From the NCBI GenBank assembly GCA_017502165.1, contig JAFVVO010000018.1, positions 1-36,846 of the forward strand: DNA of 36,846 nucleotides. The letters are read 5' to 3'. Every line of letters begins with the position of its first letter. The first letter of the stretch is position 1. Made by a program: the position numbers and the translations under genes. The notes under the pieces are model-generated. The model was not told the DNA's origin. It did no database searches and was given only the letters and a program-made list of their open reading frames with translations. The stretch comes from Clostridia bacterium. Lineage in GTDB: Bacteria; Bacillota; Clostridia; Christensenellales; QALW01. This document shows positions 1-16,764 of the stretch, in pieces.

Positions 1-136
1 AAAAAAGACAGCCGCACGGGAGCGGCTGCCGGAAAAGGTAATGCGATGCTAAACTTTCAGAGCCACTTTCAGTGGCAAGCCAGCAACAACCCCTTATAGG
101 GGTAGGAGAAAACCACTAGTTGAACTAGTGGTTTTT
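1..136. other. Cluster of four hairpins at the window edge
   Basis: Four perfect short palindromes lie within 136 bases: 9-15/22-28 (7 bp, with six A residues at 1-6, so a terminator when read on the minus strand), 62-67/71-76 (GCCACT/AGTGGC), 89-94/98-103 (ACCCCT/AGGGGT) and 109-120/124-135 (12 bp). No protein-coding frame is evident between them. The density suggests either a small structured RNA on the minus strand ending at the poly-U, or the end of an IS200/IS605-type element, whose ends are hairpins rather than inverted repeats. Which one is inference; the hairpins themselves are seen. Confidence 0.5.
109..136 (-). terminator. Terminator hairpin of the alpha-CTD-like gene
   Basis: A perfect 12-bp stem (109-120 with 124-135) with a 3-base loop, flanked by A on the left and T on the right. 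The stop codon of the minus-strand gene at 125 sits inside the stem. It could work in both directions. Confidence 0.65.
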
Positions 137-496
137 ATTTTCACTAATAAGCGTTTCGAAGAAGGAGAGCTTTTCTTGGTCGGTCATTGCTTCGTAGGCG
201 GTTTTTAAGAATTTTACTTTTATTTCGTTCTCGGTTTTTGCGTTTACTATGCGAAGGGCGGGAAGGAGATTTACCTTAATTAAGGGGAGCAGCTCGCGCA
301 TGCAGGAAACGTTTCCGCGTTTAAGGGCATTATAGCCGCGGACAGATAAATCCAAGTCCTCAATGGCAATTTTTTCTGCCTGCTCGTTTACGGAAATGGT
401 TATGGATACGTCGCCACCGAAAGCACTATAAATGGTTTTCAGAATTCCTTGCTCGTTGGCAGATTTGAGCATGTCCTGCGGGGTAGGCTTATTCAT
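125..496 (-). CDS. Stand-alone RNA polymerase alpha C-terminal-domain-like protein
   Basis: A 123-aa protein. Residues about 44-99 resemble the alpha-CTD of RNA polymerase: IEDLDLSVRGYNALKR matches the conserved helix that reads UP elements, and the later AKTENEIK block matches the second DNA-contact segment. By hand alignment to E. coli RpoA, Arg265, Asn268 and Lys298 correspond to R53, N56 and K87, all kept. The first 43 residues have no recognisable domain and no assembly (NTD) domain is present, so this is not RpoA. It might bind DNA or an activator; that is inference. A GAAGGAG site precedes the ATG. The stop is inside a terminator hairpin. Similar small alpha-CTD proteins are, as far as I know, scattered in Clostridia with no assigned function. 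Confidence 0.8.
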   Translation of the reverse strand: MNKPTPQDMLKSANEQGILKTIYSAFGGDVSITISVNEQAEKIAIEDLDLSVRGYNALKRGNVSCMRELLPLIKVNLLPALRIVNAKTENEIKVKFLKTAYEAMTDQEKLSFFETLISENKNH

Positions 497-555
497 TATA
501 AAACTCCTTCGCTAAAATTTATTAAGTCGGAACTGACGAAAGCCTTGCTAAAGGC

Positions 556-1080
556 TTAAGACTTGAAGCTTCCGTAAACAACTACGTCGTCGATGGATTT
601 TGATTCAAAATGCATATCCATCGGCTTTGCGTCAGGGGCGGGATAACCCATAACTAAAAGGGCGTGGGGCTCGATATTTTCGGGAATTGAAAAGGCTTGG
701 CGCATCTTGACCGGGTCAAAGTGCATCACCCAGCAGGTACCTACGCCTTCGTTTTGGGCGGCAAGCATCAAATAGGTTGTAACGATGGAAGCGTCAACGG
801 GGGAGGAAAGCGCGCCGTCGTATTTTCTTACCCAGCTTTCATTTTTGTTGTGACACACTAAAAATGCGGTGGGAGCGTTAAAATGGCAACGTGTGCAATC
901 GTGCAGACGAGCCATTTCCTCGTCGGAATTGAGCACTAAAATTCTTTGGGGCTGAAAATTGCATCCGGTGGGTGCTTTATGTCCGCAGGCAAGAATTTTG
1001 TCTATAACCGTCTGGGGAAGATGCTCGGGCAAAAACGAGCGGACGGAATAACGCTCTGAAATAAGCTTTTCAAAATCCAT
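556..1080 (-). CDS. Nitroreductase-family FMN oxidoreductase
   Basis: A 174-aa protein of the nitroreductase fold, usual length for the short members. The N-terminal ERYSVRSF (R10, S12, R14) and APTGCNFQPQR are the FMN phosphate and ring-binding segments, and GVGTCWVMHFDP followed by LLVMGYPAPDAKP is the typical C-terminal pair. The family uses FMN and NAD(P)H to reduce nitro groups, quinones or enones in the cytoplasm; the substrate cannot be read from sequence. AGGAGA lies 6 bases before the ATG. It lies on the same strand between the aminotransferase and the alpha-CTD-like gene, with gaps of about 50-60 bases, so the three may be co-transcribed. Confidence 0.88.
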   Translation of the reverse strand: MDFEKLISERYSVRSFLPEHLPQTVIDKILACGHKAPTGCNFQPQRILVLNSDEEMARLHDCTRCHFNAPTAFLVCHNKNESWVRKYDGALSSPVDASIVTTYLMLAAQNEGVGTCWVMHFDPVKMRQAFSIPENIEPHALLVMGYPAPDAKPMDMHFESKSIDDVVVYGSFKS

Positions 1081-1129
1081 AATAATCTCCTAAAGTAATT
1101 ACTTTTTGAAATTTAGGGGCACTTAAAAA

Positions 1130-1978
1130 TTAAAGTCTTACGCCTGTGTCGGCAAACACCTTATCCAAGAATAATTCCTGCAAACGTGTTGCAAGAGCAG
1201 AGTCTTTTCCGCCAACGTAAGCGTCGTCCACCTCAAAAACTCTGATAACGTTTTTGGTAGTGCTGCAAAGCAGAATTTCGTCAGCATTTTTCAGCTCGTC
1301 AACGGTGAAAACTCTGATTTCAACGGGTATGGAGTTTTCGTCGCAAACGCGGTGAAGAATTTTGCGGGTAATGCCGGGCAAAATTAAATTATCAAGAGGC
1401 GGCATAATAACTGTGCCGTCTTTAATAATTAAAATACTGCTATGGGCGGCCTCGGTAACTCTGTCACCGCGGTGGAAAAGCACTTCTGTTTTGCCTGCGG
1501 CAGTTGCCTTTTGTGCGGCAAAAACGTTGGGCATAAGGTTGGTGGTTTTAATGTTGCAGAACCGGAACCGCAAATCTTCAACACTTAAAAGCGAGGCCCT
1601 TTTGTTTTTATCGGGAAGAGGGCAGGGCGCAATAAACATAAATAAGTTGGGCTTTGCATTTTCGGGATATTCGTGTTTTCTCGGCGCGGCACCGCGGGAA
1701 ACCTGCAAATAAAGCATTGCGCATTTGCCGGTGTTATGAGAAATAAGACGCTGAATTTCGCCGTTTAATTCTTCGCGCGGCATAGTAAATTCAATGTCAG
1801 CTAAAGTGCAACTGTTGTAGAGTCTGTCAAGATGGTCTTCTAAGGCGAAGCACAAATTATCTAAAACCAAAACGGCGTCATAAATAGCGTCACCGTAAAA
1901 AATAGAACGGTCCGCAAAGGGAACGGTCATTTTTTCGTAATCACCTATAGCACCGTTAAAATAGGCTATTCTTTCCAT
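1130..1978 (-). CDS. dat: D-amino acid aminotransferase (class IV PLP)
   Basis: A 282-aa class IV aminotransferase, the same length as Bacillus D-alanine transaminase. Residues expected for the D-specific enzyme are visible: Y33 in YGDAIYD, R100 and H102 in YLQVSRGAAPRKHEYP (the carboxylate trap), the PLP lysine K144 in NIKTTNLMPN, and E176 in RVTEAAHSS. It probably makes D-alanine or D-glutamate for peptidoglycan from 2-oxo acids. I chose the ATG at 1978 because GAGGTG lies upstream at proper distance; an in-frame start at 2014 would add 12 unlikely residues. A branched-chain or aminodeoxychorismate lyase role is less likely given the R/H pair. A TTGACC-17-TATCAT promoter precedes it. Confidence 0.85.
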   Translation of the reverse strand: MERIAYFNGAIGDYEKMTVPFADRSIFYGDAIYDAVLVLDNLCFALEDHLDRLYNSCTLADIEFTMPREELNGEIQRLISHNTGKCAMLYLQVSRGAAPRKHEYPENAKPNLFMFIAPCPLPDKNKRASLLSVEDLRFRFCNIKTTNLMPNVFAAQKATAAGKTEVLFHRGDRVTEAAHSSILIIKDGTVIMPPLDNLILPGITRKILHRVCDENSIPVEIRVFTVDELKNADEILLCSTTKNVIRVFEVDDAYVGGKDSALATRLQELFLDKVFADTGVRL

Positions 1979-2004
1979 AATAACACCTCGAATTTCTTTT
2001 TTAT

Positions 2005-2033
2005 ATGATACCACTTATGCCTTTTGCGGTCAA
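2005..2033 (-). promoter_or_regulatory. SigA-type promoter for the aminotransferase
   Basis: On the minus strand, TTGACC (2028-2033), a 17-base spacer, then TATCAT (2005-2010), 27 bases upstream of the chosen start codon. Confidence 0.6.
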
Positions 2034-2043
2034 CAAAAACAAG

Positions 2044-2919
2044 CTAAATAGTTTGCACGGAGTTTTTATATTCACTTGGAGTCATATTGGTTTTTCTTTT
2101 GAACACGGTTGAAAAATAGTGGGGATTATCAAAGGAAAGCATATCGGAAATTTCCGTAAAGGTATAGCGCTCCTGACGGATAAGCTTCTTCGCTTCCTGA
2201 ATTTTAAGCATAGTGATATATTCGGAAATAGTGTGCCCCGAATGTAGCTTAAAAATTTTAGAAAGATAAGTTCTGGAATAATTAAGCGTAGCACAAATTT
2301 CTTCAACTGTAATTCGAGAATACACCTTTTCTTCAATAATGTGCATCATTTGAAGCGTTAGGTGGTTTTCCATGCTTTCTTTAGATGGAAAAATAGTTTC
2401 CTGCCGTTTTTCCTGCTGAGCACGTATAAGCATAATCAAAAGCTGCTCAAGATGGGTACGAATCATTTGCTGTCCGCCTATACGGGCGTTTTCTCGCAAC
2501 TTTAATTCCATATCCTTAAAGTTCATTTTATCGAAGGTCTGGTTATACTCGTCAATAATGGCGGCAATGTATCGTTTGAGCTTGGGCGGCAGATGAAGTG
2601 TTTTATCCTTAAAGAGCTTCATTGCCTCAGAGGAGCAAACGAAAGAAAGCACAAAAACGTTAGCAGGAGCATTTTTGTTTGCTTTAAGTGTGTGAAACTC
2701 GTTGGGCTTATGGAAAATAATTTCGCCCTGCCCTAAAAAATAAGTATTTTTGTTGGCGTTGATTTCAACCTCGCCTGCGTCAACGTAAACCAACTCCCAG
2801 AAATTATGACTTTCGCCCTCAAAGAAAAAGGTCTTGTCAAGCTCGTAATAGTGAATGGTAACAATCTTGTTAATGCTTATTAAATTTGCAATTCTATGCT
2901 TTATATATTCTGATTTCAC
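2044..2919 (-). CDS. AraC-family transcriptional regulator with cupin sensor
   Basis: A 291-aa regulator. The N-terminal half is an AraC-type cupin (YFLGQGEIIFHKPNEFHTL is the typical fold signature) that likely binds a sugar. The C-terminal ~100 residues hold the two helix-turn-helix motifs: ITVEEICATLNYSRTYLSKIFK, and FTEISDMLSFDNPHYFSTVFK followed by TNMTPSEYK. The start is a GTG at 2917-2919, preceded by AGAGG; no upstream ATG fits. It is divergent from the epimerase/oxidoreductase operon across a 108-base gap, so it most likely controls that operon, and possibly itself. The ligand is unknown. Confidence 0.92.
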   Translation of the reverse strand: MKSEYIKHRIANLISINKIVTIHYYELDKTFFFEGESHNFWELVYVDAGEVEINANKNTYFLGQGEIIFHKPNEFHTLKANKNAPANVFVLSFVCSSEAMKLFKDKTLHLPPKLKRYIAAIIDEYNQTFDKMNFKDMELKLRENARIGGQQMIRTHLEQLLIMLIRAQQEKRQETIFPSKESMENHLTLQMMHIIEEKVYSRITVEEICATLNYSRTYLSKIFKLHSGHTISEYITMLKIQEAKKLIRQERYTFTEISDMLSFDNPHYFSTVFKRKTNMTPSEYKNSVQTI

Positions 2920-3027
2920 TTTTTTGCCTCTGTTTACAAAATTATACTTTTAGAATAAAAAAATATATGGAACTTTCTTTCAAATTATTCTATCATAAAG
3001 TAAAGATATTTTCAAGGAGGAATTTAT
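2920..3027. promoter_or_regulatory. Divergent control region between AraC gene and sugar operon
   Basis: AT-rich 108 bases. On the minus strand a consensus TATAAT (2941-2946) lies 22 bases before the GTG of the regulator, without a good -35. On the plus strand TATCAT (2991-2996) is a possible -10 for the operon, with a poor -35, as expected for an AraC-activated promoter. AAGGAGG precedes the operon ATG. Confidence 0.4.
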
Positions 3028-3867
3028 ATGAAAAAAGGTATAAGTATTTGGTCTTTTACTGAACCTGACCTTAAAAAATGTTTTGAAACTGCAAAGGATG
3101 CGGGCTTCGACGGTGTAGAAGTTGCACTTGATTTTCAGGGCCCCGTTTCAATGGAATCAACAAAGGAAGATATTCTTGCAGTTAAGAAAATGGCTGAAGA
3201 AGTAGGTGTTGAGCTTTATAGCGTTGCCTGCGGTCTTTATTGGGATTTTAATTACACTTCAGATATTGAAGCAAACAGAGAAAAAGCAAAGGAAATTACA
3301 AAAAAACAGCTTCAGGTTGCATCGTGGCTTGGCTGTGATTCAATTTTAGTTGTGCCCGGCGCGGTTGACGTTGTATTTAACCCCGCCAGCGAAGTTATTC
3401 CTTATGACGTTGCTTATGACAGAGCGCTTAGTGCATTAAAGGAGCTTGCTCCCTTTGCAGAAGAATTAAAGGTTAATATCGGTGTTGAAAACGTATGGAA
3501 CAAGTTCTTACTTTCACCGATTGAAATGCGTAATTTTATTGATGAAATTGGCTCTGATTTTGTTGGCTCATATTTCGATGTTGGAAACGTTGCTTATATC
3601 GGTTACCCTGAACAGTGGGTTAAGATTCTCGGCAAGAGAATTAAGAAGGTTCACTTTAAGGATTACAGACGTGCGGTGGGCAGCCTTGACGGTTTCGTTG
3701 ACCTTTTAGCAGGTGACGTTGACTATAAGGCAGTTATGGAAGCTTTTGCTTCAATCGGCTATGAAGATTGGGCAACGGCTGAAATGATACCGCCTTACAA
3801 GCAGTATTCCGAAACAATTATTTATAACACGTCCAATGCTATGGACAAGATTTTAGGGAGGAAATAA
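3028..3867 (+). CDS. Sugar phosphate isomerase/epimerase (TIM barrel, AP-endonuclease 2 fold)
   Basis: A 279-aa xylose-isomerase-like TIM barrel. The four metal ligands of the ribulose-phosphate 3-epimerase / tagatose epimerase group are visible: E154 (GVENVW), D184 (FDVGN), H209 (KVHFKD) and E252 (TAEMI). It should epimerise or isomerise a sugar, sugar phosphate or keto-inositol, or do a retro-aldol/elimination on a keto-sugar; the exact substrate is not readable. First gene of the operon, with a consensus AAGGAGG site. The next gene starts one base after its stop. Family confidence is high, substrate confidence low. Confidence 0.88.
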   Translation: MKKGISIWSFTEPDLKKCFETAKDAGFDGVEVALDFQGPVSMESTKEDILAVKKMAEEVGVELYSVACGLYWDFNYTSDIEANREKAKEITKKQLQVASWLGCDSILVVPGAVDVVFNPASEVIPYDVAYDRALSALKELAPFAEELKVNIGVENVWNKFLLSPIEMRNFIDEIGSDFVGSYFDVGNVAYIGYPEQWVKILGKRIKKVHFKDYRRAVGSLDGFVDLLAGDVDYKAVMEAFASIGYEDWATAEMIPPYKQYSETIIYNTSNAMDKILGRK

Positions 3868-3868
3868 T

Positions 3869-4870
3869 ATGTTGAAAGTTGGTTTAATCGGTTGCGGTTT
3901 TATGGGTGGAATGCACTCGGCATGCTACAAGGCTATTGACGGTGTTGAAGTTGTTGCAGTTGCTGACGTTCGTTTAGAAAAGGCTCAGGAAATTGCACGC
4001 GTACACAATGCAGAAATTTATGCAACGGGTATGGAGCTTATTGAAAACGCTAACGTAGATATTATTGATATTTGCTTGCCTACTTATCTTCACACCGAGC
4101 ACGCAGTTGCCGCTATGAAGAAGGTTAAAAACGTATTTATTGAAAAGCCCGTTTGCTTAAACGAAGCAGAAGGCGAGCTTTTGCTTAAAACTCAAAAGGA
4201 AACGGGAGCAAACGTGCAAATCGGTCAGGTTATTCGTTTCTGGGATGAGTACGTTTGGCTTAAGGAAGTCTTTGATAAAAAGGAATACGGTGAAGTTTTA
4301 TCAGCAGCATTCTGCCGTTTAAGTTCAAGACCCACTTGGGCTTGGGATAACTGGCTCCATACTGCCGATAAGAGCGGCTCAATGGCTCTTGACCTTCACG
4401 TGCACGACGTTGACTTTATGCGCTATATGCTTGGTGAACCCGACGGTCTTACTTCAACAGCGGTTCGCAATGCTGACGGTGTAATCGAGCAGATTTTCAC
4501 CACTTATACCTACGGCGGAAAAGCTGTTTCTGTTGAAGGCTGCTGGGACTATCCTGCAGATTTCCCCTTTACAGCAGGCTTCCGCGTTAAATTTGAGAAA
4601 GCAACCGTTGTGCTTGATGCAGGCGGCCTTGCAGTTTATTTTGTTGATGGCGGTAGCTTCAAGCCTGAAATTAAGCCTGCCTTTGAAGCAGACAACGATA
4701 TTGGCGGAAACCTTTCAAGCCTTGGCGGATATTATAACGAGCTTAAATATTTCGTTGATAACATTGCAGAAGGAAAGGCTCTTGAGGTTGCACCTCTTTG
4801 CGAAGGCGTTAAGTCAGTAAATCTTATATTAAAGGAAATTGCTTTTGTAGGCGGAGCACAGAAAAAATGA
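3869..4870 (+). CDS. Gfo/Idh/MocA-family NAD(P)-dependent oxidoreductase (first copy)
   Basis: A 333-aa dehydrogenase. The N-terminal Rossmann motif is GLIGCGFMGGMH (residues 5-16), the family EKP motif is at 92-94, and the catalytic-site segment DLHVHDVDFMRY begins at about residue 175. Family members oxidise a ring or side-chain hydroxyl of sugars, inositols or glycosides to a ketone using NAD(P). Its stop overlaps the start of the next gene in an ATGA junction, implying translational coupling. No signal peptide, so cytoplasmic. It is only distantly similar to the adjacent second copy, so the two probably act on different substrates or steps. Confidence 0.9.
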   Translation: MLKVGLIGCGFMGGMHSACYKAIDGVEVVAVADVRLEKAQEIARVHNAEIYATGMELIENANVDIIDICLPTYLHTEHAVAAMKKVKNVFIEKPVCLNEAEGELLLKTQKETGANVQIGQVIRFWDEYVWLKEVFDKKEYGEVLSAAFCRLSSRPTWAWDNWLHTADKSGSMALDLHVHDVDFMRYMLGEPDGLTSTAVRNADGVIEQIFTTYTYGGKAVSVEGCWDYPADFPFTAGFRVKFEKATVVLDAGGLAVYFVDGGSFKPEIKPAFEADNDIGGNLSSLGGYYNELKYFVDNIAEGKALEVAPLCEGVKSVNLILKEIAFVGGAQKK

Positions 4871-5871
4871 AAATTCACAATATAGCGCTCATCGGCTGTG
4901 GACAAATGGGCGCGGCGCATCTGGACGATATTTATTTTAAGGAAAACGTGTGCATCACTTACGTTTGCGACCTTGACGTTCAGCGTGCTGAGTTGTTCAA
5001 AAGAAAATACAACGCTAAAAGCATTATTACGGATTATAAAGAATGTATCGCAAAGGATGACGTTGACATTGTTATTTGCGCTACCTATCCTTCAACACAT
5101 CTTGATATTTTGAAAGAATGTATTAAGCATAACAAGAATTTACTTTGCGAAAAGCCTATAACGTCCGACCTTGAGTCAGGAAAAGAGTTTGTGCGTCTTG
5201 TTAAGGAAAACCCGCAAATAAAGGTTTTAATCGGTCACATTCTGCGTCATAATACCACTTATAATATGGTGCGTGATATGATATTTGATGGAGCAATCGG
5301 CTCGCCGATTATTATGCGTATGGCTCAAAATCATCACACAATGAATTGGCAGAAGTATCTTGGCCTTATTAAAGAAACCTCGCCGCTTGTTGATTGCGGA
5401 GTTCATTATATCGACGTTATGCGTTGGTTTACGGGCGCGGAAATCGTTTCCGTTTCAGGAGTAGGTCTTCGAACTGACGAAGAAGTGCCAAAGGATAAGT
5501 GTAATTATGCGTTGATGACCGCAAAGCTTTCCGACGGTTCCGTAGGATATTATGAGGTAGGCTGGGCAAATACTATGTCTTCAGATAACCTTAAGGAGTT
5601 TATCGGTCCCAAGGGAAGAATAAAGCTTGTTTACCGCAAAGACAGACAAACCCATCAGGAAGAGGGAGATTTGATTGAGTATTACAAATATCCCGAAAAA
5701 ACCTATCAGCTTATAAACGTGGACAGTAAACGTAAGCCTACGGGCAAACAGCTTGACTGCCTTATTGATATGATTGAAAACGGCGCTGACGCAAATCCCA
5801 CTATTGATGAGGTTTGGCGCAGTTTCGAAATCGCCCAAGAGGCAGATGCTATCATTCGAGGTGCTGTATGA
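4867..5871 (+). CDS. Gfo/Idh/MocA-family oxidoreductase (second copy)
   Basis: A 334-aa dehydrogenase with an N-terminal ALIGCGQMGAAH Rossmann motif (residues 7-18), CEKP at 94-97, and the active-site segment SPLVDCGVHYIDVMRWF, where Cys-Gly-Val-His replaces the DLHVH of the first copy. It overlaps both neighbours by ATGA junctions. It likely uses NAD(P) on a sugar derivative; the different active-site segment argues for a different substrate from its upstream partner, for example catalysing the reverse reduction of the final product. That division of labour is inference. Confidence 0.9.
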   Translation: MKIHNIALIGCGQMGAAHLDDIYFKENVCITYVCDLDVQRAELFKRKYNAKSIITDYKECIAKDDVDIVICATYPSTHLDILKECIKHNKNLLCEKPITSDLESGKEFVRLVKENPQIKVLIGHILRHNTTYNMVRDMIFDGAIGSPIIMRMAQNHHTMNWQKYLGLIKETSPLVDCGVHYIDVMRWFTGAEIVSVSGVGLRTDEEVPKDKCNYALMTAKLSDGSVGYYEVGWANTMSSDNLKEFIGPKGRIKLVYRKDRQTHQEEGDLIEYYKYPEKTYQLINVDSKRKPTGKQLDCLIDMIENGADANPTIDEVWRSFEIAQEADAIIRGAV

Positions 5872-6644
5872 AAACCGGTATAATTGTTGAAAGCTTCAAA
5901 ACAGATTATGAATCTGCCATAAAGCTTGCTAAGGAAATGGGCTTCGAGGGCATTCAGTTTTACGGCAATTTTTATTCGCCTGATAAAACTGCTTTACCTG
6001 TTTCGGCAGTTTGTGCTGAAATTGAAGGCGATAGCTTCGAAACCTATAACGTTCAGCGTATTGCCAAAACCAAGGAAATTATGCTTTTAGCCAAAAAACT
6101 TGGCACAAATATCGTTACTACCCATATAGGCGTAGTAGATATGCAAAATCAGGATATGCGCGCTTGTTTAGAAGAAATTGGCGCTTTCGGCGAGGAAATC
6201 GGCGTCAGCCTTGCCATTGAAACGGGACCCGAAAAGGCAACGCAGTTAAAGGAATTTATCGAATCGCTTAAAACGAAAAATATCGGCGTTAACCTTGACG
6301 GAGCAAATCTTGTTATGGTAACCGATGACGATCCCGTTGAAGCGGTTTACACTCTTCGAGAGTATATTCTCCACGTGCATATTAAAGACGGAGTAATGCT
6401 TAAAAAGACTGAGCCCAAGATTATTTACGATTTCTTTGCTTCAGGGGGAATAGGTGACCTTAGGCTTGACGAATATTTTAAGGAAACGCCCTTAGGCGAA
6501 GGCAACGTTGACTTAAAGGGAATGATAAATGCTCTTAAGGATATCGGCTATGACGGATATTTAACCATTGAGCGCGAAACAAGCGACACGCCTATGGTTG
6601 ATATAACAAGGGCGAAAGATTATCTGGATGAATTGATGAAATAA
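5868..6644 (+). CDS. Sugar phosphate isomerase/epimerase (second TIM barrel)
   Basis: A 258-aa TIM barrel. Putative metal ligands are E118 (AIETG), D144 (NLDGAN), H171 (HVHIKD) and E235 (TIERE), the same order as in the first epimerase of the operon. The start at 5868 overlaps the upstream stop as ATGA; a longer frame from 5814 would read through the upstream gene. It closes the operon and is followed by a terminator. Its last 24 codons have a diverged second copy at 7261-7329 (see fossil). Substrate unknown; the shape of the operon suggests that it acts on a keto-sugar made by one of the oxidoreductases. Confidence 0.87.
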   Translation: MKTGIIVESFKTDYESAIKLAKEMGFEGIQFYGNFYSPDKTALPVSAVCAEIEGDSFETYNVQRIAKTKEIMLLAKKLGTNIVTTHIGVVDMQNQDMRACLEEIGAFGEEIGVSLAIETGPEKATQLKEFIESLKTKNIGVNLDGANLVMVTDDDPVEAVYTLREYILHVHIKDGVMLKKTEPKIIYDFFASGGIGDLRLDEYFKETPLGEGNVDLKGMINALKDIGYDGYLTIERETSDTPMVDITRAKDYLDELMK

Positions 6645-6654
6645 ATATTCAAAA

Positions 6655-6689
6655 CGGAGCGCCTGCAAAAGCAAGACGCTCCGCTTTTA
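6655..6689 (+). terminator. Terminator of the epimerase/oxidoreductase operon
   Basis: Stem CGGAGCG/CGCTCCG (6655-6661 with 6677-6683) followed by CTTTT, 11 bases after the last stop codon. Confidence 0.8.
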
Positions 6690-6697
6690 TAAAAAAC

Positions 6698-6726
6698 TTG
6701 CATTTTGATTATCACAGTAGTATAAT
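6698..6726 (+). promoter_or_regulatory. Strong SigA promoter for the membrane protein
   Basis: TTGCAT (6698-6703), 17 bases, TATAAT (6721-6726), 30 bases upstream of the ATG at 6756. Confidence 0.75.
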
Positions 6727-6755
6727 GGTAGTAACAAAATAAAAGGAGAAAAAAT

Positions 6756-7289
6756 ATGGAACTTAAGAAGAAAGACAAAAATTCGCGTGAAGTATTACAA
6801 CAGCAGTTTAATAATGCAAGAAGCAACCTGTTATTGATGCTTGCATTTACCGTGCTTAACATTGTGCTCCTCGTTTTAGATACAGGAACAATGTTCCTTT
6901 TCTCTGCAACCGTACCTTATTATGCAGTATTGTTTGCTATGATAGAGCCTGCGATAATGTATCATTGTATTGCAATAGCCGCAATAAGCATTATTGCATA
7001 TGTACTTTGCTGGATTTTCAGTAAAAAGCAATTTGGCTGGATGATAGCCGCACTGGTTTTGTTTGTGATAGATACCATTGCTATGCTTGACGTTTATATT
7101 ACCGCAGAAGACGCATCGGGAATTCTTGACTTGGTTATTCACGCTTGGGTGCTTTGGTACCTCGTAATAGGTGTAATAAGCGGAAGAAAGCTTAAAAAGC
7201 TTCCCCAAGAGGTTATTGACGGTGAAGCACAGATAGTTGAAGATCAGGCAAATACGCAAACGGAAAACAAGCCAAACTCCGATAGTTGA
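6756..7289 (+). CDS. Small four-helix membrane protein, unknown function
   Basis: A 177-aa protein I do not recognise. A charged N-terminus (ELKKKDKNSRE) is followed by about four hydrophobic helices (roughly 24-46, 56-76, 80-103, 108-128 with a fifth weak one to 157), then a polar tail rich in E, Q, N and T. It has its own promoter and AAAGGAG site. The tail is odd: its last nine or so codons overlap, in another frame, a decayed copy of the end of the upstream epimerase gene. The C-terminus was therefore probably gained by reading into foreign DNA. It likely sits in the cytoplasmic membrane. Confidence 0.75.
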   Translation: MELKKKDKNSREVLQQQFNNARSNLLLMLAFTVLNIVLLVLDTGTMFLFSATVPYYAVLFAMIEPAIMYHCIAIAAISIIAYVLCWIFSKKQFGWMIAALVLFVIDTIAMLDVYITAEDASGILDLVIHAWVLWYLVIGVISGRKLKKLPQEVIDGEAQIVEDQANTQTENKPNSDS

Positions 7290-7329
7290 TATTACAAGAG
7301 CAAAAGAGTATCTTGATAAGTTGATATAA
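7261..7329 (+). pseudogene. Fossil of the 3' end of a sugar isomerase/epimerase gene
   Basis: In this frame the DNA reads RKTSQTPIVDITRAKEYLD then KLI and stop. The intact epimerase at 5868-6644 ends RETSDTPMVDITRAKDYLD then ELMK and stop. By hand count 16 of 22 residues and about 54 of 69 bases agree. There is no start codon or upstream coding part, so this is a truncated remnant. The 3' end of the membrane-protein gene overprints it in a different frame. Its stop abuts the next terminator, which may be the original terminator of the lost gene. Confidence 0.85.
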
Positions 7330-7368
7330 ACAAACAGCGACAGAAATTCTGTCGCTGTTTGTTTTTTT
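7329..7368. terminator. Long perfect terminator hairpin
   Basis: A 15-bp perfect stem (7329-7343 with 7349-7363) with a 5-base loop, followed by a T run on the plus strand. It ends plus-strand transcription. The stop codon of the convergent 53-aa gene lies in the T run, so it may also act for that strand. Confidence 0.9.
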
Positions 7369-7528
7369 ATCCACGAACGATTTTACTAACTACGTAATCT
7401 GGATATTTTGCCATAAATCGCATCAATGCAATTGATTCACTAGTAGCATGAACCATAGTGGTACCGCGGTTATGATAAACAGTCCACATTACAGCATTGC
7501 CTTCGTATGATGTAAATCCGTTATACAT
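7367..7528 (-). CDS. 53-aa small protein, last gene of the XRE-controlled cassette
   Basis: A short frame, MYNGFTSYEGNAVMWTVYHN followed by a basic C-terminus ending KIVRG. GGAGG lies 7 bases before the ATG, which is a strong ribosome site and the main reason to accept it. It is rich in aromatic residues (W15, several Tyr and Phe) and has no signal peptide or transmembrane helix. I do not recognise a family. It is the promoter-distal member of the four-gene minus-strand cassette and ends at the T run of the long terminator. Its start region follows a fossil of a CBM9-like gene. Confidence 0.65.
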   Translation of the reverse strand: MYNGFTSYEGNAVMWTVYHNRGTTMVHATSESIALMRFMAKYPDYVVSKIVRG

Positions 7529-7578
7529 ATATATTCCTCCTTTATTTTAAGCAACTAAATTGCTATATTAACTAAGTT

Positions 7579-7617
7579 TTTAAGGTTGGGATAGAATCTA
7601 CGGATAAATTCAAAGGG
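7579..7617 (-). pseudogene. Fossil fragment of a CBM9-like gene
   Basis: Read on the minus strand this gives PFEFIRRFYPNLK, matching PFEFIRRFYPDFK in the intact CBM9-like gene (11013-11051). The block 7588-7617 is identical to 11022-11051 at 28 of 30 bases, far beyond chance. No start, no flanking homology and no functional frame remain. It lies between the 64-aa and 53-aa genes of the cassette. Confidence 0.85.
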
Positions 7618-7624
7618 TTTTGTT

Positions 7625-7819
7625 TTATCGCAATAAAGTTAAAACAATATCGCCATAACCTATCATTCGACCATAAAAATCAAATGTCTTATCGAGAGAC
7701 TTATCATAATAGCCAAGTCTTCGACCATAAAAATCGCTGAGCCATTTTTTATTACCTGACCATTCTATAGCACCAATGATTTTACCTGTGTAATCTTTAA
7801 TAACCTCTTTTGCCATCAT
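7625..7819 (-). CDS. Small beta-repeat protein (5-fold beta-flower type)
   Basis: A 64-aa protein made of three diverged copies of a glycine-turn strand unit: GKIIGAIEW, YGRRLGYYDKSL, YGRMIGYGD. This resembles the 5-fold beta-flower small-protein family as I remember it, which has the same DFYGRxLGYxD units. Function is not known to me; such folds are often oligomer-forming or binding modules. Two ATG codons (7817-7819 and 7814-7816) share one GGAGC site; the second gives better spacing. It is the third gene of the minus-strand cassette, 27 bases after the Cys-rich gene. Confidence 0.7.
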   Translation of the reverse strand: MMAKEVIKDYTGKIIGAIEWSGNKKWLSDFYGRRLGYYDKSLDKTFDFYGRMIGYGDIVLTLLR

Positions 7820-7846
7820 ATATGCTCCTAGTTAATAGAATTTTTA

Positions 7847-8059
7847 TTAACTGAGTGCGCTCCACTTTTGAAATTTAGGGCAATAAGTTCCAGAACAAGC
7901 AAAATGTCCGGCACTACTACTGGTGAACACGCCAGCATAGCACTTGCCTTGATCGTTCTGAGAATTTGTTTGAGCGGCTTTTGCATAATTGATGGTTCTG
8001 TTACCACCCCAGTTTGCACAAGTTGCACAGCATTTGGTGTTTTGTGATGCAGTCCACAT
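7847..8059 (-). CDS. 70-aa cysteine-rich small protein
   Basis: A 70-aa protein starting MWTASQNTKCCATCANWGGN. Cysteines occur as CCxxC near the N-terminus, then KCY, FxC and YCPKF with a conserved-looking W near the end. The arrangement suggests a small metal-binding or disulfide-stabilised domain. I recall similar uncharacterised proteins in gut Firmicutes, often with CCATCAxWGG, but no function. AAGGTGG precedes the ATG. An overlapping frame (7828-8073) is less Cys-patterned and was rejected. Second gene of the cassette, 34 bases after the 341-aa gene. Confidence 0.7.
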   Translation of the reverse strand: MWTASQNTKCCATCANWGGNRTINYAKAAQTNSQNDQGKCYAGVFTSSSAGHFACSGTYCPKFQKWSALS

Positions 8060-8093
8060 AAGAGATTCACCACCTTAATATAAAATATAAATT

Positions 8094-9119
8094 TTACTTA
8101 TACAAGAGAACTTTCTTGAATTCTTCCGTAGCAGTTTCAATAGTTTCTTTCGAGGAATCTATTAAAGTTCGGGAAGCTTCTTTCAGTTCGTCTTCGCTAC
8201 CGAAATATTCTAAAGTCATAAACTTGTTCCAAAGGGTGTCGCCGTATTCGCCAACTGCTTCACCGCCAAAACCTATGCGCTTTAATTTGTTGTTTTCCAT
8301 AAAGTCGGTAACATTCAACTCTTTATCTTTAACTATTAAAATAAAGGTAAAAAGAGTGGCGAAATCCAATTCACTAAGAGAAAAAACAGCAGAATCTTTT
8401 GCAAGTTCGGCAAACAAATCTACCAATTGGGGATAAATAGTTAAAATAAAAATGAAAAAAGCGGCATGGTGCTGATTTTCAATTTCTATGTTTTCAATTT
8501 CATTTAATTTTGAAACAAAATCTCTTAAAGGTTTATATTTTTCAGAAATACCGTATCGTAAGCACCAACCTGCAAGCACAGGATATTTTGATAAGTTTGG
8601 ATAAAACTCTTCAGTAAATTTGGTAAAAATTTGTATGGCGAGTTCATAAGAATTGCGATCAATTATACTTTCGATTGTTTCTACAGGAAGCGTACTGTAA
8701 GAACTTGCTAAGTCGTCAATCTGCTCTTGGCGGGTGCTTGAATCAAAGGAAATGACCCCGTTTAATGACTTACCATAATCTATAAACCTAAGATTATCTG
8801 TTTGCTCGATTGCTATATCTTTGGCAAACATTTTCTTTTTTGCTTCACAAGACTGTTCTTTGGGACAGGAACAACAAAATTCTTGAGAAAAGAGAAAAGC
8901 ACCGCATTTTTGACCATCTAAGATTGTGCAGTTGTAATCATTAGGAATTTCAACTTCTTCTGTTTCTTCTTCAACTTCTTCTTCGCTAATGTTTGACGTA
9001 ATTTCGTCGGAGGAATTGTTTGAGAGATCCTTTCTAGAGTCGGTTGTTTCGGCTGCTTTGAAAAAACGATCAAATAAATTCTTCAATAGTTTAATCAAAG
9101 ATTCGAAAAGTGAATTCAT
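8094..9119 (-). CDS. 341-aa protein of unknown function, first gene of XRE-controlled cassette
   Basis: I do not recognise this protein. Residues 1-22 form an amphipathic, Phe/Leu/Lys-rich segment (LFESLIKLLKNLFDRFFK). A strongly acidic Ser/Glu linker runs to about 60. A cysteine cluster follows (CTILDGQKCG, then FCCSCPKEQSCE), which could bind metal. The rest, about 100-341, is helical and rich in acidic and aromatic residues, with no transmembrane helix long enough to be sure of. A GAAAGGGG site precedes the ATG. It is transcribed from a strong promoter flanked by two operators, divergent from an XRE regulator. It may attach peripherally to the membrane through its N-terminal helix; that is inference. 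Confidence 0.8.
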   Translation of the reverse strand: MNSLFESLIKLLKNLFDRFFKAAETTDSRKDLSNNSSDEITSNISEEEVEEETEEVEIPNDYNCTILDGQKCGAFLFSQEFCCSCPKEQSCEAKKKMFAKDIAIEQTDNLRFIDYGKSLNGVISFDSSTRQEQIDDLASSYSTLPVETIESIIDRNSYELAIQIFTKFTEEFYPNLSKYPVLAGWCLRYGISEKYKPLRDFVSKLNEIENIEIENQHHAAFFIFILTIYPQLVDLFAELAKDSAVFSLSELDFATLFTFILIVKDKELNVTDFMENNKLKRIGFGGEAVGEYGDTLWNKFMTLEYFGSEDELKEASRTLIDSSKETIETATEEFKKVLLYK

Positions 9120-9153
9120 TTTTTTATACCCCTTTCAAAAATATAATAATAAC

Positions 9154-9180
9154 AATATGACATTCACTGAATGTCATATT
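9154..9180. promoter_or_regulatory. Operator 1: 27-bp perfect palindrome
   Basis: Half-site AATATGACATTCA (9154-9166), one central base, and its exact complement (9168-9180). The inner 19 bp (9158-9176) match operator 2 except at three positions. It lies just downstream of the -10 element of the cassette promoter. Confidence 0.8.
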
Positions 9181-9187
9181 TTACTTG

Positions 9188-9216
9188 ATTATAGCATAAA
9201 ATATTTCTATTGACAA
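9188..9216 (-). promoter_or_regulatory. Strong SigA promoter of the small-protein cassette
   Basis: On the minus strand TTGTCA (9211-9216), a 17-base spacer ending TGC (extended -10), then TATAAT (9188-9193). The -35 lies inside operator 2, and operator 1 starts 8 bases past the -10. Confidence 0.8.
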
Positions 9217-9229
9217 GCACTAAATGTCA
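9211..9229. promoter_or_regulatory. Operator 2: second copy of the palindrome
   Basis: TGACAAGCACTAAATGTCA, identical to the core of operator 1 at 16 of 19 positions. Centres are 53 bp apart, about five helical turns, so two repressor dimers could sit on the same DNA face. It overlaps the -35 of the cassette promoter and lies just before the XRE gene. Confidence 0.75.
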
Positions 9230-9245
9230 AAAATGGGGGATTTTT

Positions 9246-9485
9246 ATGTTTATTAACAAGACAAATGATGGATTAAACAATGTTTGCGGGAAAAATATTG
9301 CCCGATTGAGAATGGGTATGAAAATATCACAGCGACAGTTGGCAGATAAAATGCAGCTTGAAGGAATAGATATAGATAAAAATGCGATACAAAGAATAGA
9401 GTGTGGGAAAAGATTTGTAACAGATATTGAATTAATAGCGTTTCAAAAACTCTTTGGAGTTGCGTTTGAAGAACTGTTAAAATAA
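9246..9485 (+). CDS. XRE-family helix-turn-helix regulator
   Basis: A 79-aa Cro/CI-type DNA-binding protein. The HTH spans about 15-77: IARLRMGMKISQRQLADKM, then NAIQRIECGKRFVTDIELIA and the closing helix LFGVAFEELLK. It consists of the DNA-binding domain alone with no sensor domain. I chose the ATG at 9246 with GGGGGA upstream; a longer frame from 9210 would start inside operator 2. It is divergent from the 341-aa gene and close to two copies of a palindrome, so it is the likely repressor of the cassette and of itself. What releases it is unknown. Confidence 0.85.
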   Translation: MFINKTNDGLNNVCGKNIARLRMGMKISQRQLADKMQLEGIDIDKNAIQRIECGKRFVTDIELIAFQKLFGVAFEELLK

Positions 9486-9502
9486 GTTGAAAAGTTAATA
9501 TG

Positions 9503-9531
9503 TTGCATTCTTTCGAGTTTGAAGATATAAT
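9503..9531 (+). promoter_or_regulatory. SigA promoter for the MFS transporter
   Basis: TTGCAT (9503-9508), 17-base spacer, TATAAT (9526-9531), 38 bases upstream of the ATG. Confidence 0.75.
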
Positions 9532-9569
9532 TGTGGTAGATAGATTGTTTATATAATAAGGAAAGTAAG

Positions 9570-10805
9570 ATGGAAAACAAATATAAAATTACAAAAGTAG
9601 CTTGCTATATGACTAACGTTTCAATGGCAATGACGTCTTGTATGCCGCCGCTTTTGTTTTTGACATTTAATAAAGCCTATAATATTTCATTTACGCTTTT
9701 AGGCTTGCTGGCGGTTGCCTGCTTTGGTATCCAGCTTTTTATTGATCTTGTTTTCACCTTTTTTGCCAAGCATTTTAATTTGCATCTTACCTTAAAAACT
9801 ATGCCGCTTTTCAGCGCCTTCGGACTGTTGTTCTATGCCCTTATGCCCCTGTTGTTTCCCCAAAACGCTTACGCCTTTTTGTTTGTGGGAACGCTTATGT
9901 TTTCCGTTTCAGCAGGACTTGCTGAGGTGTTAATAAGCCCCTTGGTTGCGGCAATTCCTTCGGATAATCCTGAGAAGGAAATGAGCAAGCTTCACGCAGT
10001 TTATGCTTGGGGCGTTGTGGCGGTAGTTATTATCAGCAGTATTTTGCTTCAGCTTTTAGGCGGAGAAAATTGGTTTTTACTGCCTTGCATCTGGTCACTT
10101 TTGCCCATTGCAACCTTTATAGCCTTTTCCTTTGCCGCGCTTCCGTGCATTTCAGTAGGAAACGGCGAAAGAGGAATAAAATTCCCCAAGGGAATATTTT
10201 TGTTGTTTTTGTGCATTTTCTTGGGCGGCGCCGCAGAAAATTCTATGACGCAGTGGTGCTCAAGCTTTCTTGAAAAGTCCGCAGGGCTTCCTAAAACAGT
10301 AGGCGACGTTTTCGGTCTTGCGCTTTTTGCTCTGCTTTTAGGTTTAGGCAGAACTCTTTACGGAAAATTCGGTAAAAATATATTAAACACACTGCTTGCG
10401 TGTATGACCTCAAGCTTTGTCTGCTACGTTGTTGCGGCAATTTCGCCAAGCCCGATTGTTTCCCTTATTGCCTGCGTTTTAACCGGCTTTTGCGTTTCGA
10501 TGCTTTGGCCCGGCACGCTTATTTTAATGGAAGAAAAATACGCTTCCGTCGGTGTTGCCGCTTACGCCTTAATGGCGGCAGGGGGCGACGCGGGCTGTTC
10601 TGTGGGACCGCAGATGGTAGGTGCCGTAACGGACGCAGTTTTGTCCTTTGAAGGCGCAACGGAGCTTGCCCAGACCTTTGGGTTAACTGCCGACCAAATG
10701 AGTATGCGCGTTGCAATTTTATGCGCTTCGCTGTTTTCGCTTATAGGAATTTTCCTTTTAATAGGAATAAAACACTTCTTTAAGAATAAAGAAAAAACAA
10801 GATAA
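9570..10805 (+). CDS. MFS transporter, sugar-porter-like
   Basis: A 411-aa protein with about 12 hydrophobic helices and a short central cytoplasmic loop (GNGERGIKFPKG) between the two halves, as expected for the major facilitator superfamily. Segments such as CMPPLLFLTF, LHAVYAWG and TGFCVSMLWPGT resemble fucose/nucleoside-permease-like members, so a sugar substrate and proton symport are reasonable but not proved. It has its own promoter. It faces the ceramidase/NagA/CBM9 operon across a shared terminator and may bring in a sugar released by that pathway; this link rests on position only. Confidence 0.88.
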   Translation: MENKYKITKVACYMTNVSMAMTSCMPPLLFLTFNKAYNISFTLLGLLAVACFGIQLFIDLVFTFFAKHFNLHLTLKTMPLFSAFGLLFYALMPLLFPQNAYAFLFVGTLMFSVSAGLAEVLISPLVAAIPSDNPEKEMSKLHAVYAWGVVAVVIISSILLQLLGGENWFLLPCIWSLLPIATFIAFSFAALPCISVGNGERGIKFPKGIFLLFLCIFLGGAAENSMTQWCSSFLEKSAGLPKTVGDVFGLALFALLLGLGRTLYGKFGKNILNTLLACMTSSFVCYVVAAISPSPIVSLIACVLTGFCVSMLWPGTLILMEEKYASVGVAAYALMAAGGDAGCSVGPQMVGAVTDAVLSFEGATELAQTFGLTADQMSMRVAILCASLFSLIGIFLLIGIKHFFKNKEKTR

Positions 10806-10820
10806 CGAATTTATAGAATA

Positions 10821-10852
10821 AAAAAAGAGCTGAAGAATATCAGCTCTTTTTT
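10821..10852. terminator. Bidirectional terminator
   Basis: A 13-bp stem (10821-10833 with 10840-10852) with A-run and T-run arms, between two convergent genes. Confidence 0.88.
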
Positions 10853-10865
10853 GATGTTTAAGTAA

Positions 10866-11468
10866 TTATTCAACAAAATTCATTTTACCGAACATTGCGG
10901 GCTGATGGAAATCAAGCTCCGTGGTAATGGGGTTCCAAGAAAGGTAATGAGGGGGATTTGAAAAGTCTGCGCACTTATAGCAGTTTGCGTAGAAGGATTT
11001 TCCTGCCTCTGCCTTAAAATCGGGATAGAATCTACGGATGAACTCAAAGGGAACAGTGTAATAAATTTCCCAGCCGCCGTCAAAGAATTTAATGTCGGGG
11101 GAGAAAATTGCTTCAGGCTCGTCGGGAACGATACGAAGGGCATCAGCTCTTCCGGTAGCAATTCCCAAATACAAGCAACCGTTTGAGTTAAACTCGATGT
11201 TAACGTATCTGGGATCCTCTGCAACGGGGCGGAAGAAAAATTCAAGACAGCTATCTTCGCAGGGCATACCTAAGGGACCCTTTTCTACTGCACGGATAAC
11301 GGCTTCCTTAGTTTCAAGGTGAACTAAAAATCCGTCGTCGTTGTAACAGATTTGTGCGTTTGCAGTAATTTCGGCAGGAGTTTGCTCGTAGGGCGTGTCA
11401 ATGTTAAGCTTATCTATTTTGCTCCAGTCAGGCGCGCCGCAAACCTTTTTAACGTTATATTCTTTCAT
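10866..11468 (-). CDS. CBM9-like carbohydrate-binding protein
   Basis: A 200-aa protein of the CBM9-like domain group. Typical segments are EDSCLEFFFRP, RYVNIEFNSNGCLYLG and the closing HYLSWNPITTELDFHQP...FGKMNF. No signal peptide is seen, so it seems cytoplasmic, unlike classical xylanase-linked CBM9; intracellular members are common as single-domain proteins near sugar genes. Ligand unknown. Its start overlaps the NagA-like stop by one base (TAATG). Last gene of the three-gene operon. A 39-base piece of a close paralogue survives as a fossil at 7579-7617. Confidence 0.8.
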   Translation of the reverse strand: MKEYNVKKVCGAPDWSKIDKLNIDTPYEQTPAEITANAQICYNDDGFLVHLETKEAVIRAVEKGPLGMPCEDSCLEFFFRPVAEDPRYVNIEFNSNGCLYLGIATGRADALRIVPDEPEAIFSPDIKFFDGGWEIYYTVPFEFIRRFYPDFKAEAGKSFYANCYKCADFSNPPHYLSWNPITTELDFHQPAMFGKMNFVE

Positions 11469-12607
11469 TACTGTATTTCTCCGTTCATCATAACCTTTTG
11501 TACATTCATTCTGTGGTCCACAAAAACCAGGTCGGCGCGCTTGCCTACGGCAATTTCACCACGGTCAAGCAAGCCTACCGCAACGGAGGGGTTGTATGAG
11601 GCGAACTTGAACACGTCAACGATTGATGCGCCGGTATGCTTAATCATATTACGGCAGGCAATGTCAAGAGTCATCTTGGAGCCTGCAATTTCACCTGCGT
11701 GGTCGAAGTTGATATCGTCAACGCCTTCATAGCCCTCGGGAATGGGGCCGTCGAATACACAAGCGTCGGAAATAAGAATAATACGGTCATCACCCTTAAT
11801 TTTGCGTACCAAACGAAGCATATAGGGGTCAACGTGAATACCGCGGCTATCACAAATAAGTTCAGCAAAAATACTGTCGTTATAGTTAACGGTTTCATCT
11901 ACGCAGGGAGTGCGGCATTCAGGATATTTCTGAAGGGTTCCTGTTGCATTGGTGTGGTGAGTGCCGATCTTCAGCCCGTGAGGTATCAAGGCCTCAATAT
12001 CTTCGGGAGTAGCCTCGGAGTGAGCCACGGTGAATACCACGTTGGGATTTACCTTTTTGCAATCCAGAACAAAGTCCAAAATGTTTTCTCTCTCCGGAGC
12101 AAGCGCCCACACTCTAACGTCTTTTCCTGCCTGAAGAATCAGATCCATATAGTCTTCTTTTCTAATGGGACTCCGCCAAGGGTTACTTTCGCGGTTCGCA
12201 CCGAATTTGGGGTTCATATAGGGGCCTTCCATATAGAAGCCGCCGAAGTTGGGAAGTTCTCCGTCTGCAACGGCTTTCTGAATCCTCTTGGTGTCCCCCA
12301 AAAAATTTTCTTTGTTGCGGTCGAAGTACACCACGGGAAGAACGGTGGTAACGCCGTGCTCAAGAATACGTTCTCCGGCAATTTCCGGCTCTTCATAAAA
12401 CCAATGACCGCAAGCGGCGTGGGTATGAATATCCACAAAGCCGGGGCCGACGTATGCTCCGAGAGCATCAATAACCTCAGCGTCTGCAGGAATATTTGTT
12501 TTGCGCATTTCACCGAAGTATGTAATTTTGCCGTCTTCAACAAAAATGCAACCGTCGGGAATATAATGGTCGCGCATGACCAAGGTAGCATTTATAATTG
12601 CAATCAT
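11468..12607 (-). CDS. NagA-like N-acetylglucosamine-6-phosphate deacetylase / amidohydrolase
   Basis: A 379-aa amidohydrolase, normal length for NagA. Metal and catalytic motifs: HTH at 61-63 (PGFVDIHTHAACGHW), E127 (MEGPY), H196 (AHSEAT), H217 (GTHHTNAT) and a C-terminal ISDAC aspartate. NagA normally has GxHLFNAM at the 217 position and an LEGP...GAH segment; here these are GTHHTNAT and MEGPYMNPKFGA, so the substrate may be another N-acyl sugar. It overlaps the ceramidase-like gene by ATGA and the CBM9-like gene by TAATG, showing strict coupling. Cytoplasmic. Gene symbol withheld because the substrate is uncertain. Confidence 0.82.
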   Translation of the reverse strand: MIAIINATLVMRDHYIPDGCIFVEDGKITYFGEMRKTNIPADAEVIDALGAYVGPGFVDIHTHAACGHWFYEEPEIAGERILEHGVTTVLPVVYFDRNKENFLGDTKRIQKAVADGELPNFGGFYMEGPYMNPKFGANRESNPWRSPIRKEDYMDLILQAGKDVRVWALAPERENILDFVLDCKKVNPNVVFTVAHSEATPEDIEALIPHGLKIGTHHTNATGTLQKYPECRTPCVDETVNYNDSIFAELICDSRGIHVDPYMLRLVRKIKGDDRIILISDACVFDGPIPEGYEGVDDINFDHAGEIAGSKMTLDIACRNMIKHTGASIVDVFKFASYNPSVAVGLLDRGEIAVGKRADLVFVDHRMNVQKVMMNGEIQ

Positions 12608-13374
12608 TTCTTCAAATCCTCAAGAATTTTTTTGCTTTCTGCGGCTATATGCTCGGCAACACCTGCTTTGAAGTTGGAGCTTCTTGCTTCGTAGCCGCCT
12701 TCGTCATAGGAATCTTGCATGGGGAAGTAGCCTTCACCGCCGTTAGTTAAGCAGTTAGCGATAATAAGGTCGAAAGCGTCAGATTCTCTGATAAGCTTGC
12801 CGATGCCGGAGAAGGGCTCACCGGGGATACCAACGAAGGCAACCGGGCCGATGGCAATGGCGGAAAGAGTCATATCAAAGGTGTCGGGAGCGTCAGCAAG
12901 GCGAACCATTCTGCCTGCTTCGGCAACGATAGTAGTGAGCATCATACCCTCGTAGGGAAGCTCTGCGTCCTTACCTGCATTATGTAAATCGTTAATGCGG
13001 ATAGCTTCGGGAAGCTGCTCGGGAGTGGGCTTGTTGGAGGGAAGCTCAAGGCGCTTGTTAAGGTAGTTAATAGAGTCAACGTCAACATAAGCAACCTTGT
13101 CGAATGCCTGAAGCACGCCGCCGGTAACAACACGGGCAATATATTTTGCGTGAGCGTAGCCGCGGGAAACGTCGTCAAAATCCATGAACATATCGTTAAG
13201 GAAGCCGCCGGTGGGGAATACGTTAACGTGGTTAATGTCGCCCTGAGTGCCGTTAAGAACAAGACACTTTGTGCCGTCTAAAATCTTTTCTACGGTTCTG
13301 CGGGTTAAGCCCGGCCAGTCAGCAGAAATAAGCTCTCCGCCAACAACGTCGGGATGGTTTGCAAAGGAAGTCAA
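12604..13374 (-). pseudogene. Neutral ceramidase-like protein, C-terminal part after a frameshift
   Basis: A 256-aa reading frame beginning MTSFANHPDVVGGELISADWPG, which is the middle of the family and not a natural N-terminus. NGTQGDINHVN matches the family's QGD segment. Upstream of its first Met the same frame continues without a stop as far as about 13480 and joins the N-terminal part with one base missing. Whole protein would be about 450 aa. Its stop overlaps the NagA-like start (ATGA), so its translation should couple to that of NagA. Confidence 0.8.
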
Positions 13375-13955
13375 AACGATATCCTCTGCATTTTCTCTTG
13401 TAAAGCGAACAACGGAAACAGTGTCGTCGGTAACACCGCCAACGGGACCAACGATATCGGGGTTGTTAACGCCGGGGTTGGTTTGATGCTGCCGTCCTTC
13501 ATAACGTAGCGGCGAACGAAAGCAACGTTGGGAGCGTGGCCTGTGCCATAACCCATTTTTGCGTCCTTAAGATCAGCAAAGGCGTAAACGGCAACGTCGC
13601 TGATTCTGCCTAAAACGAAGTTGATATATTCGTCTTCAAGCTCGGTTTTACCACCCTCTTCAACAAGGAAAGCACCGGTGTGGGTGTGGGTTACGTGAAG
13701 ATAAACTGCCTCAACGTCAATTCCGGCTGCTTTAGCGGCGGCAGTGCGGAATTTAAGGGCCAGCTCCTGCTTAATACCGCAAGTATCTACTGTAAGAATA
13801 AGTGCTTTTTTGCCGTTACATTCAATGGCAAGTGCGTTAACTTCAAGGTCATCTAAAATGCCCTTAACGTGTCTGGGCTTAAAATAACCGTTGATAACGG
13901 TACCTAATTTGGGGTTAATGTTAACTCTGGCAAAGCCTGCTTTAAGTGCGTTCAT
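13371..13955 (-). pseudogene. Neutral/alkaline ceramidase-like protein, N-terminal part before a frameshift
   Basis: A 194-aa frame whose first ~158 residues are the N-terminal domain of the neutral/non-lysosomal ceramidase family: AGFARVNINPKLGT, then VYLHVTHTHTGA with HTHTG at 90-94 (zinc ligands), and FVRRYVMKDGSIKP. After that the frame turns into a Leu/Pro/Thr-rich sequence typical of a wrong frame. Adding one G in the GGTTGG run on the plus strand near 13479-13482 restores SIKPNPGVNNPDIVGPVGG and continues to 12604. The family cleaves the amide of ceramide in known cases; most gut members have no tested substrate. Either a real mutation, or a base-calling error. AAGGAG precedes the ATG. 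Confidence 0.82.
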
Positions 13956-13991
13956 AGTTGGAAATCTCCTTCTAAATAATATTATAGATAT

Positions 13992-14020
13992 ATTCTACAT
14001 TTTAGAACAAGTAATGTCAA
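13992..14020 (-). promoter_or_regulatory. SigA promoter of the ceramidase/NagA/CBM9 operon
   Basis: On the minus strand TTGACA (14015-14020), 17-base spacer, TAGAAT (13992-13997), 36 bases before the start codon. Confidence 0.7.
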
Positions 14021-14103
14021 TATGTTTATCAAAAATTCCGTTAAATTTTCCAATTAATTCATAAATTTTTGTGAGAAAAAATGAGATGCGCAGGCTAAAA
14101 GCA

Positions 14104-14132
14104 TTGACAAAGAATTTTTGAAATGTTAGTAT
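14104..14132 (+). promoter_or_regulatory. SigA promoter of the FGGY kinase
   Basis: TTGACA (14104-14109) with TAGTAT (14127-14132) at 17 bases; a perfect TATAAT at 14130-14135 would need a 20-base spacer. Divergent from the ceramidase promoter across a 216-base gap with no gene. Confidence 0.55.
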
Positions 14133-14171
14133 AATAATATATCAAAAAAAGAAAAAATTCGGCAGGTAAAA

Positions 14172-15596: not shown

Positions 15597-15600
15597 TAAG

Positions 15601-15636
15601 AAAAACTATCCGTTATTGTCGGATAGTTTTTTGTTT
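15601..15636 (+). terminator. Terminator of the FGGY kinase
   Basis: A 12-bp perfect stem (15601-15612 with 15620-15631) and T-rich tail. It also lies at the end of the convergent DUF4363 gene and likely serves both. Confidence 0.9.
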
Positions 15637-16674: not shown

Positions 16675-16764
16675 AAATAAACACCTCTTTGAAATATTGT
16701 GTGCCAAAATTAAGAAAGTAAACTGAAATTTTGTAAATATTTTTGAAATTATTAAACTTGCTTA

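Follow-up and report, generated by a model that had tools for sequence, protein, structure and literature searches.

Organization of the locus

The window analysed here, i.e. the whole stretch of 36,846 nucleotides (positions 1-36,846), is an entire contig in the draft assembly of a Clostridia bacterium genome (1.83 Mb in 44 contigs). According to the list of open reading frames and the Pfam matches, positions 3028-6644 hold a four-gene operon whose genes overlap or adjoin one another, and whose products are recognized by Pfam as an AP_endonuc_2 TIM-barrel protein, two oxidoreductases of the GFO/IDH/MocA family and a second AP_endonuc_2 protein. The gene for the latter (5868-6644, + strand; PF01261, E 4.2e-27) encodes an epimerase-like TIM-barrel protein of the sugar phosphate isomerase/epimerase type, and is the single full copy found in the genome. 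With 258 residues it is approximately 20 residues shorter than its homologues (about 280), the main gap in the alignment falling at about residues 33-42 of the window protein. The third-position GC of the four operon genes and of the membrane-protein gene that follows them ranges from 0.35 to 0.42, compared with an average of 0.44 (sd 0.05) for 30 genes of the window, and no operon gene is singled out as foreign by this measure.

The epimerase gene is followed by a hairpin with a T-rich tail (6655-6689, + strand), which is the probable terminator of the operon; it is absent from the list of the consensus terminator scan, and the fold of 6645-6700 has an energy of -17.2 kcal/mol (z -4.07). Further downstream, signals recognized by eye on the + strand include a possible promoter (6698-6726; TTGCAT, 17 bases, TATAAT), whose first hexamer agrees at only 3/6 positions and which is absent from the scan list, and an AGGAG at 6744-6748 that, 7 bases ahead of the next gene's ATG, is likely to be its ribosome-binding site. 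This gene (6756-7289, + strand, from the list of open reading frames) encodes a membrane protein of 177 residues with no Pfam family. The only strong terminator after it lies at 7328-7364 (+ strand), and was detected by the consensus scan as a 17-pair stem with a T tail (-25.4 kcal/mol, z -7.82).

A remnant of a second epimerase gene

The first-pass annotation had placed the end of a diverged epimerase copy, 22 codons and a stop, at 7261-7329 (+ strand), and this holds exactly to the base: in an ungapped alignment of 6573-6644 with 7261-7329, the 22 codons at 6573-6638 in the 3' part of the live gene match the fossil at 51/66 bases and 16/22 residues. Translation from 7261 gives RKTSQTPIVDITRAKEYLDKLI followed by a stop, and translation from 6573 gives RETSDTPMVDITRAKDYLDELMK, likewise followed by a stop. 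The fossil lacks the last Lys codon of the live epimerase, with no other codon missing from the matched end. Its left edge is abrupt, in that just 6/30 bases agree upstream of 7261, and a stop in the same frame is found immediately upstream, at 7234-7236. A gapped alignment spans about 300 bases, and given the ungapped count of 6/30 we attach no weight to the part of it that lies upstream of the fossil.

A match this short invites the suspicion of a chance resemblance, or of a peptide with a separate use, and we regard the probability of either as negligible. The best ungapped match of 66 bases in 300 base shuffles averaged 33.9 identities and reached a maximum of 41, against the 51 observed, and a tblastn search of the window with the epimerase recovered the fossil at E 3.6e-6; these two results refute the chance explanation. 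With respect to a separate peptide, the in-frame stop just upstream leaves a frame of 7237-7329, for which no ribosome-binding site is apparent by eye. A degenerate 39-base pattern occurs at exactly two places in the whole genome, namely the live tail and the fossil, with a reversed control giving 0, and viral contigs yielded no match to a pattern built on the shared peptide. The fossil is thus what is left of an AP_endonuc_2 (PF01261) epimerase gene; its reading frame runs on to the corresponding stop, and with neither a start nor a barrel it no longer functions as a gene. Its third-position GC is 0.27, a value which, coming from 22 codons, is based on too few for a judgement.

To place the remnant within the family, both tails were compared with the tails of 53 homologous epimerases, retaining tblastn matches of at least 35% identity that reach residue 240 and start by residue 70; one genome (L051) enters this set twice, and the two collections from which it derives may repeat a species. 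The best identity to any of these tails is 11/22 residues for the live tail and 9/22 for the fossil. Since the two share 16/22 residues with each other, the lost gene was a close sister of the live one rather than a distant member of the family. In the flanks of the 53 homologues, two of which have under 300 bases downstream, we found no tail-only fragments, the remaining matches being whole neighboring paralogues; such tail-only stumps are not common in this epimerase family. The L051 locus (1785-5834), from a goat-rectum Clostridia genome, encodes two epimerases in tandem that are 76% identical over 278 residues, each accompanied by an oxidoreductase gene. This genome is not a close relative: its epimerases share 45% and 37% identity with the window protein.

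Beyond the fossil, the interval up to the gene at 8094-9119 contains three short open reading frames in a row on the - strand (7367-8073), namely 7367-7528, 7625-7819 and 7847-8059, or the overlapping 7828-8073 in place of the last. The frame at 7625-7819 (- strand) contains repeated DFYGRxxGY motifs. Between two of these small frames, 38 bases at 7580-7617 (- strand) show an 87% match, in frame, to 11014-11051 (- strand), which lies within a CBM9-like gene at 10866-11468 (peptides PFEFIRRFYPNLK versus PFEFIRRFYPDFK; E 1.5e-5 in its own genome). Judging from this resemblance, the segment may be a second gene stump near the first.

Divergence under coding constraint

The 15 base differences between the fossil and the live tail are distributed over the first, second and third epimerase codon positions as 3/0/12 (binomial p 0.0003), which implies that both tails diverged as parts of working epimerases before one of them died. 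The corresponding estimates of dS (about 1.1) and dN (about 0.15) are rough figures, being derived from 66 bases. Selection on the overlapping membrane-protein frame did not create this pattern, for the seven differences inside the overlap fall as 5/2/0 on the codon positions of the membrane-protein gene. Most of the divergence thus dates from the time when each copy still encoded an epimerase, and the truncation is young by comparison. At the second residue the fossil has Lys, where the live gene and all 53 homologues have Glu; hence, this codon has either decayed or sits at the junction, which might then be placed one codon further in.

The codon positions also bear on a simpler history, in which only the end of the present epimerase was copied downstream and drifted neutrally thereafter. 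The presence of just 22 codons, together with a single full copy in the genome, agrees with such a partial duplication, but neutral drift would spread the changes over the codon positions, contrary to what is observed, and the sequences behind the two stops are unrelated, each with its own hairpin. We therefore hold a partial duplication to be distinctly improbable.

The membrane protein and its borrowed tail

The frame of the membrane-protein gene enters the fossil and overlaps it over 7261-7289 in a different frame, with nine codons and a TGA stop (7287-7289) inside the fossil; the residues so derived are 169-177 (TENKPNSDS), with codon 169 starting at position 7260. The earlier reading that this gene uses fossil DNA in another frame to make its C-terminal tail is thereby borne out. 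The same annotation also spoke of overprinting, which in the strict sense means that two frames are in use at once. It was right in that a second frame is read over the fossil, but the usage is a loose one, as the epimerase frame is devoid of both start and barrel, and judging from the DNA only the membrane-protein frame appears to belong to a complete gene. The terminator at 7328-7364 starts inside the stop codon of the fossil. This position suggests that the membrane-protein transcript ends at the terminator of the lost epimerase, and it is very likely there that transcription of the gene stops.

Homologues of the membrane protein were found in 19 other genomes of the 395 belonging to the same order (20/396 when the genome of the window is counted). 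For their comparison, duplicates of a protein were collapsed to one, and L076 and L077, having no match at E 1e-3, were left out; the resulting 19 sequences include two incomplete pieces from one genome (L074 and L082). Neither the window protein nor three of the homologues matched a Pfam family, and the window gene (6756-7289) and loci L003-L082 constitute a membrane protein family with a conserved membrane core and no Pfam model. Across the 19 sequences the conserved core stops near residue 149 of the window protein, and the tails beyond it vary freely, the complete ones measuring about 10 to 190 residues and being mostly disordered-looking. By eye, seven homologues have an extra C-terminal domain, of which at least two kinds can be distinguished, as in L079/L007/L081/L068 and in L080/L071. 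A longer original tail may have been lost from the window protein, but short-tailed homologues also exist (L063 and L069). A homologue with the same tail and no epimerase nearby would have argued against an origin of the tail in the fossil; none of the 19 homologue sequences (0/19) shares it, and a search of the flanks fetched around the homologues (mostly 1.5 kb) revealed no epimerase of this family.

Given that the assembly is a draft in 44 contigs, one might also consider a wrong join between contigs of two strains. We consider this highly improbable: an identity of only 77% between the two tails is very low for strain variants to have been merged, and the membrane-protein gene ends properly, with an intact stop and a terminator. 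A misjoin at about 7260 would be an odd one.

Origin of the scar

The homology of the two tails, its abrupt left end, the divergence under coding constraint and the positions of the stop and the terminator are observed features of the locus. As to how they arose, we find it very probable that a second, related epimerase once stood here, and that a junction near 7260 left a stump of 22 codons joined to the membrane-protein gene. Under this scenario the locus would formerly have held a closely related second epimerase that ended at 7329, with the terminator at 7328-7364 behind it. Recombination would then have created a junction near 7260, deleting all but the last 22 codons of that gene, and the same junction would have fused the stump to the 3' part of the membrane-protein gene. 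The latter would now read on into the stump in another frame for its last nine codons and its stop codon, with the stump's terminator probably serving it as well. We infer this order of events, and with it the loss of the membrane-protein gene's own 3' end.

Two routes to such a junction appear about equally likely. In one, a tandem duplication of the epimerase gene would have been followed by divergence and by a deletion that fused the membrane-protein gene to the 3'-terminal codons of the second copy; the tandem pair of L051, although not from a close relative, shows that a two-copy stage occurs elsewhere. In the other, an incoming segment with a diverged epimerase and the membrane-protein gene would have displaced the resident gene, through a homology join on the left and a non-homologous join on the right. 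The remnant and the gene that would have replaced it are indeed diverged versions of one gene (16/22 residues, against at most 11 and 9 with the 53 homologues). Of the initial description of the locus as a scar of gene replacement, the stump of a diverged epimerase copy stands, but replacement is unproved, as a tandem duplication with deletion explains the same facts. The locus was absent from the same-genus and same-family genomes searched, and the DNA of window positions 1-16700 gave only scattered short matches in two genomes of the same genus and two of the same family; consequently, a two-copy or an empty state has never been seen in a close relative.

Site-specific elements are able to bring with them a diverged version of their target gene's 3' end. 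The layout of a restored tail, a cargo gene and a displaced tail would fit a tiny element that integrated site-specifically at the 3' end of the epimerase gene, supplied a new end and shifted the former one downstream, in the manner of genomic islands. Against this, the longest exact run between the tails is 8 bases, which is short for an attachment core, and the 0.6 kb between them contain no open reading frame of the size of an integrase besides the membrane-protein gene, so that neither the integrase nor the attachment core expected of a site-specific island is apparent. The membrane protein also has no match in 72,556 plasmid and 50,697 phage records. A literature search on island insertion at gene ends found nothing. 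We judge such an insertion improbable, and prefer the truncation of a second epimerase at a recombination junction.

A broader reading is that a membrane-protein gene with a lost 3' end was rescued by a captured stop and terminator, and that gene tails with terminators may be favored sites for such junctions, because they safely close an incoming frame; we offer it tentatively, and think it rather unlikely.

Relationship to known systems

A study of Vibrio cholerae type VI secretion effector modules (PMC5361080) describes displaced 3' ends that are tentatively ascribed to homology-facilitated illegitimate recombination. As at the present locus, an incoming module there displaces a resident gene, whose 3' part is left further downstream. 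In that system the successive steps can be followed through orphan immunity genes and numerous strains, whereas here a single stump of 22 codons lies beside metabolic genes, with the earlier state seen in no relative. A second parallel is with recent de novo C-termini, for which PMC4494051 likewise describes an existing protein gaining C-terminal residues from DNA that previously did not code for it. Those cases, from yeast and fly, involve loss of a stop codon with extension into noncoding DNA, while the present one probably involves a recombination junction into a dead gene. Finally, in bacterial overprinting (for example PMC2268670 and PMC4683798) one stretch is read in a second frame, as it is here; the difference is that at this locus the original frame has ceased to be a functioning gene, and the event gave rise to no new one.

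The locus is a tidy, ordinary instance of a familiar type of genome scar, left by gene loss or replacement. On its own it changes little, and it would gain greater weight if a survey showed that junctions favor the tails of dying genes with terminators. It provides a clean example of the debris of another gene setting the end of a protein, along with evidence from codon positions that this debris once was a working gene.
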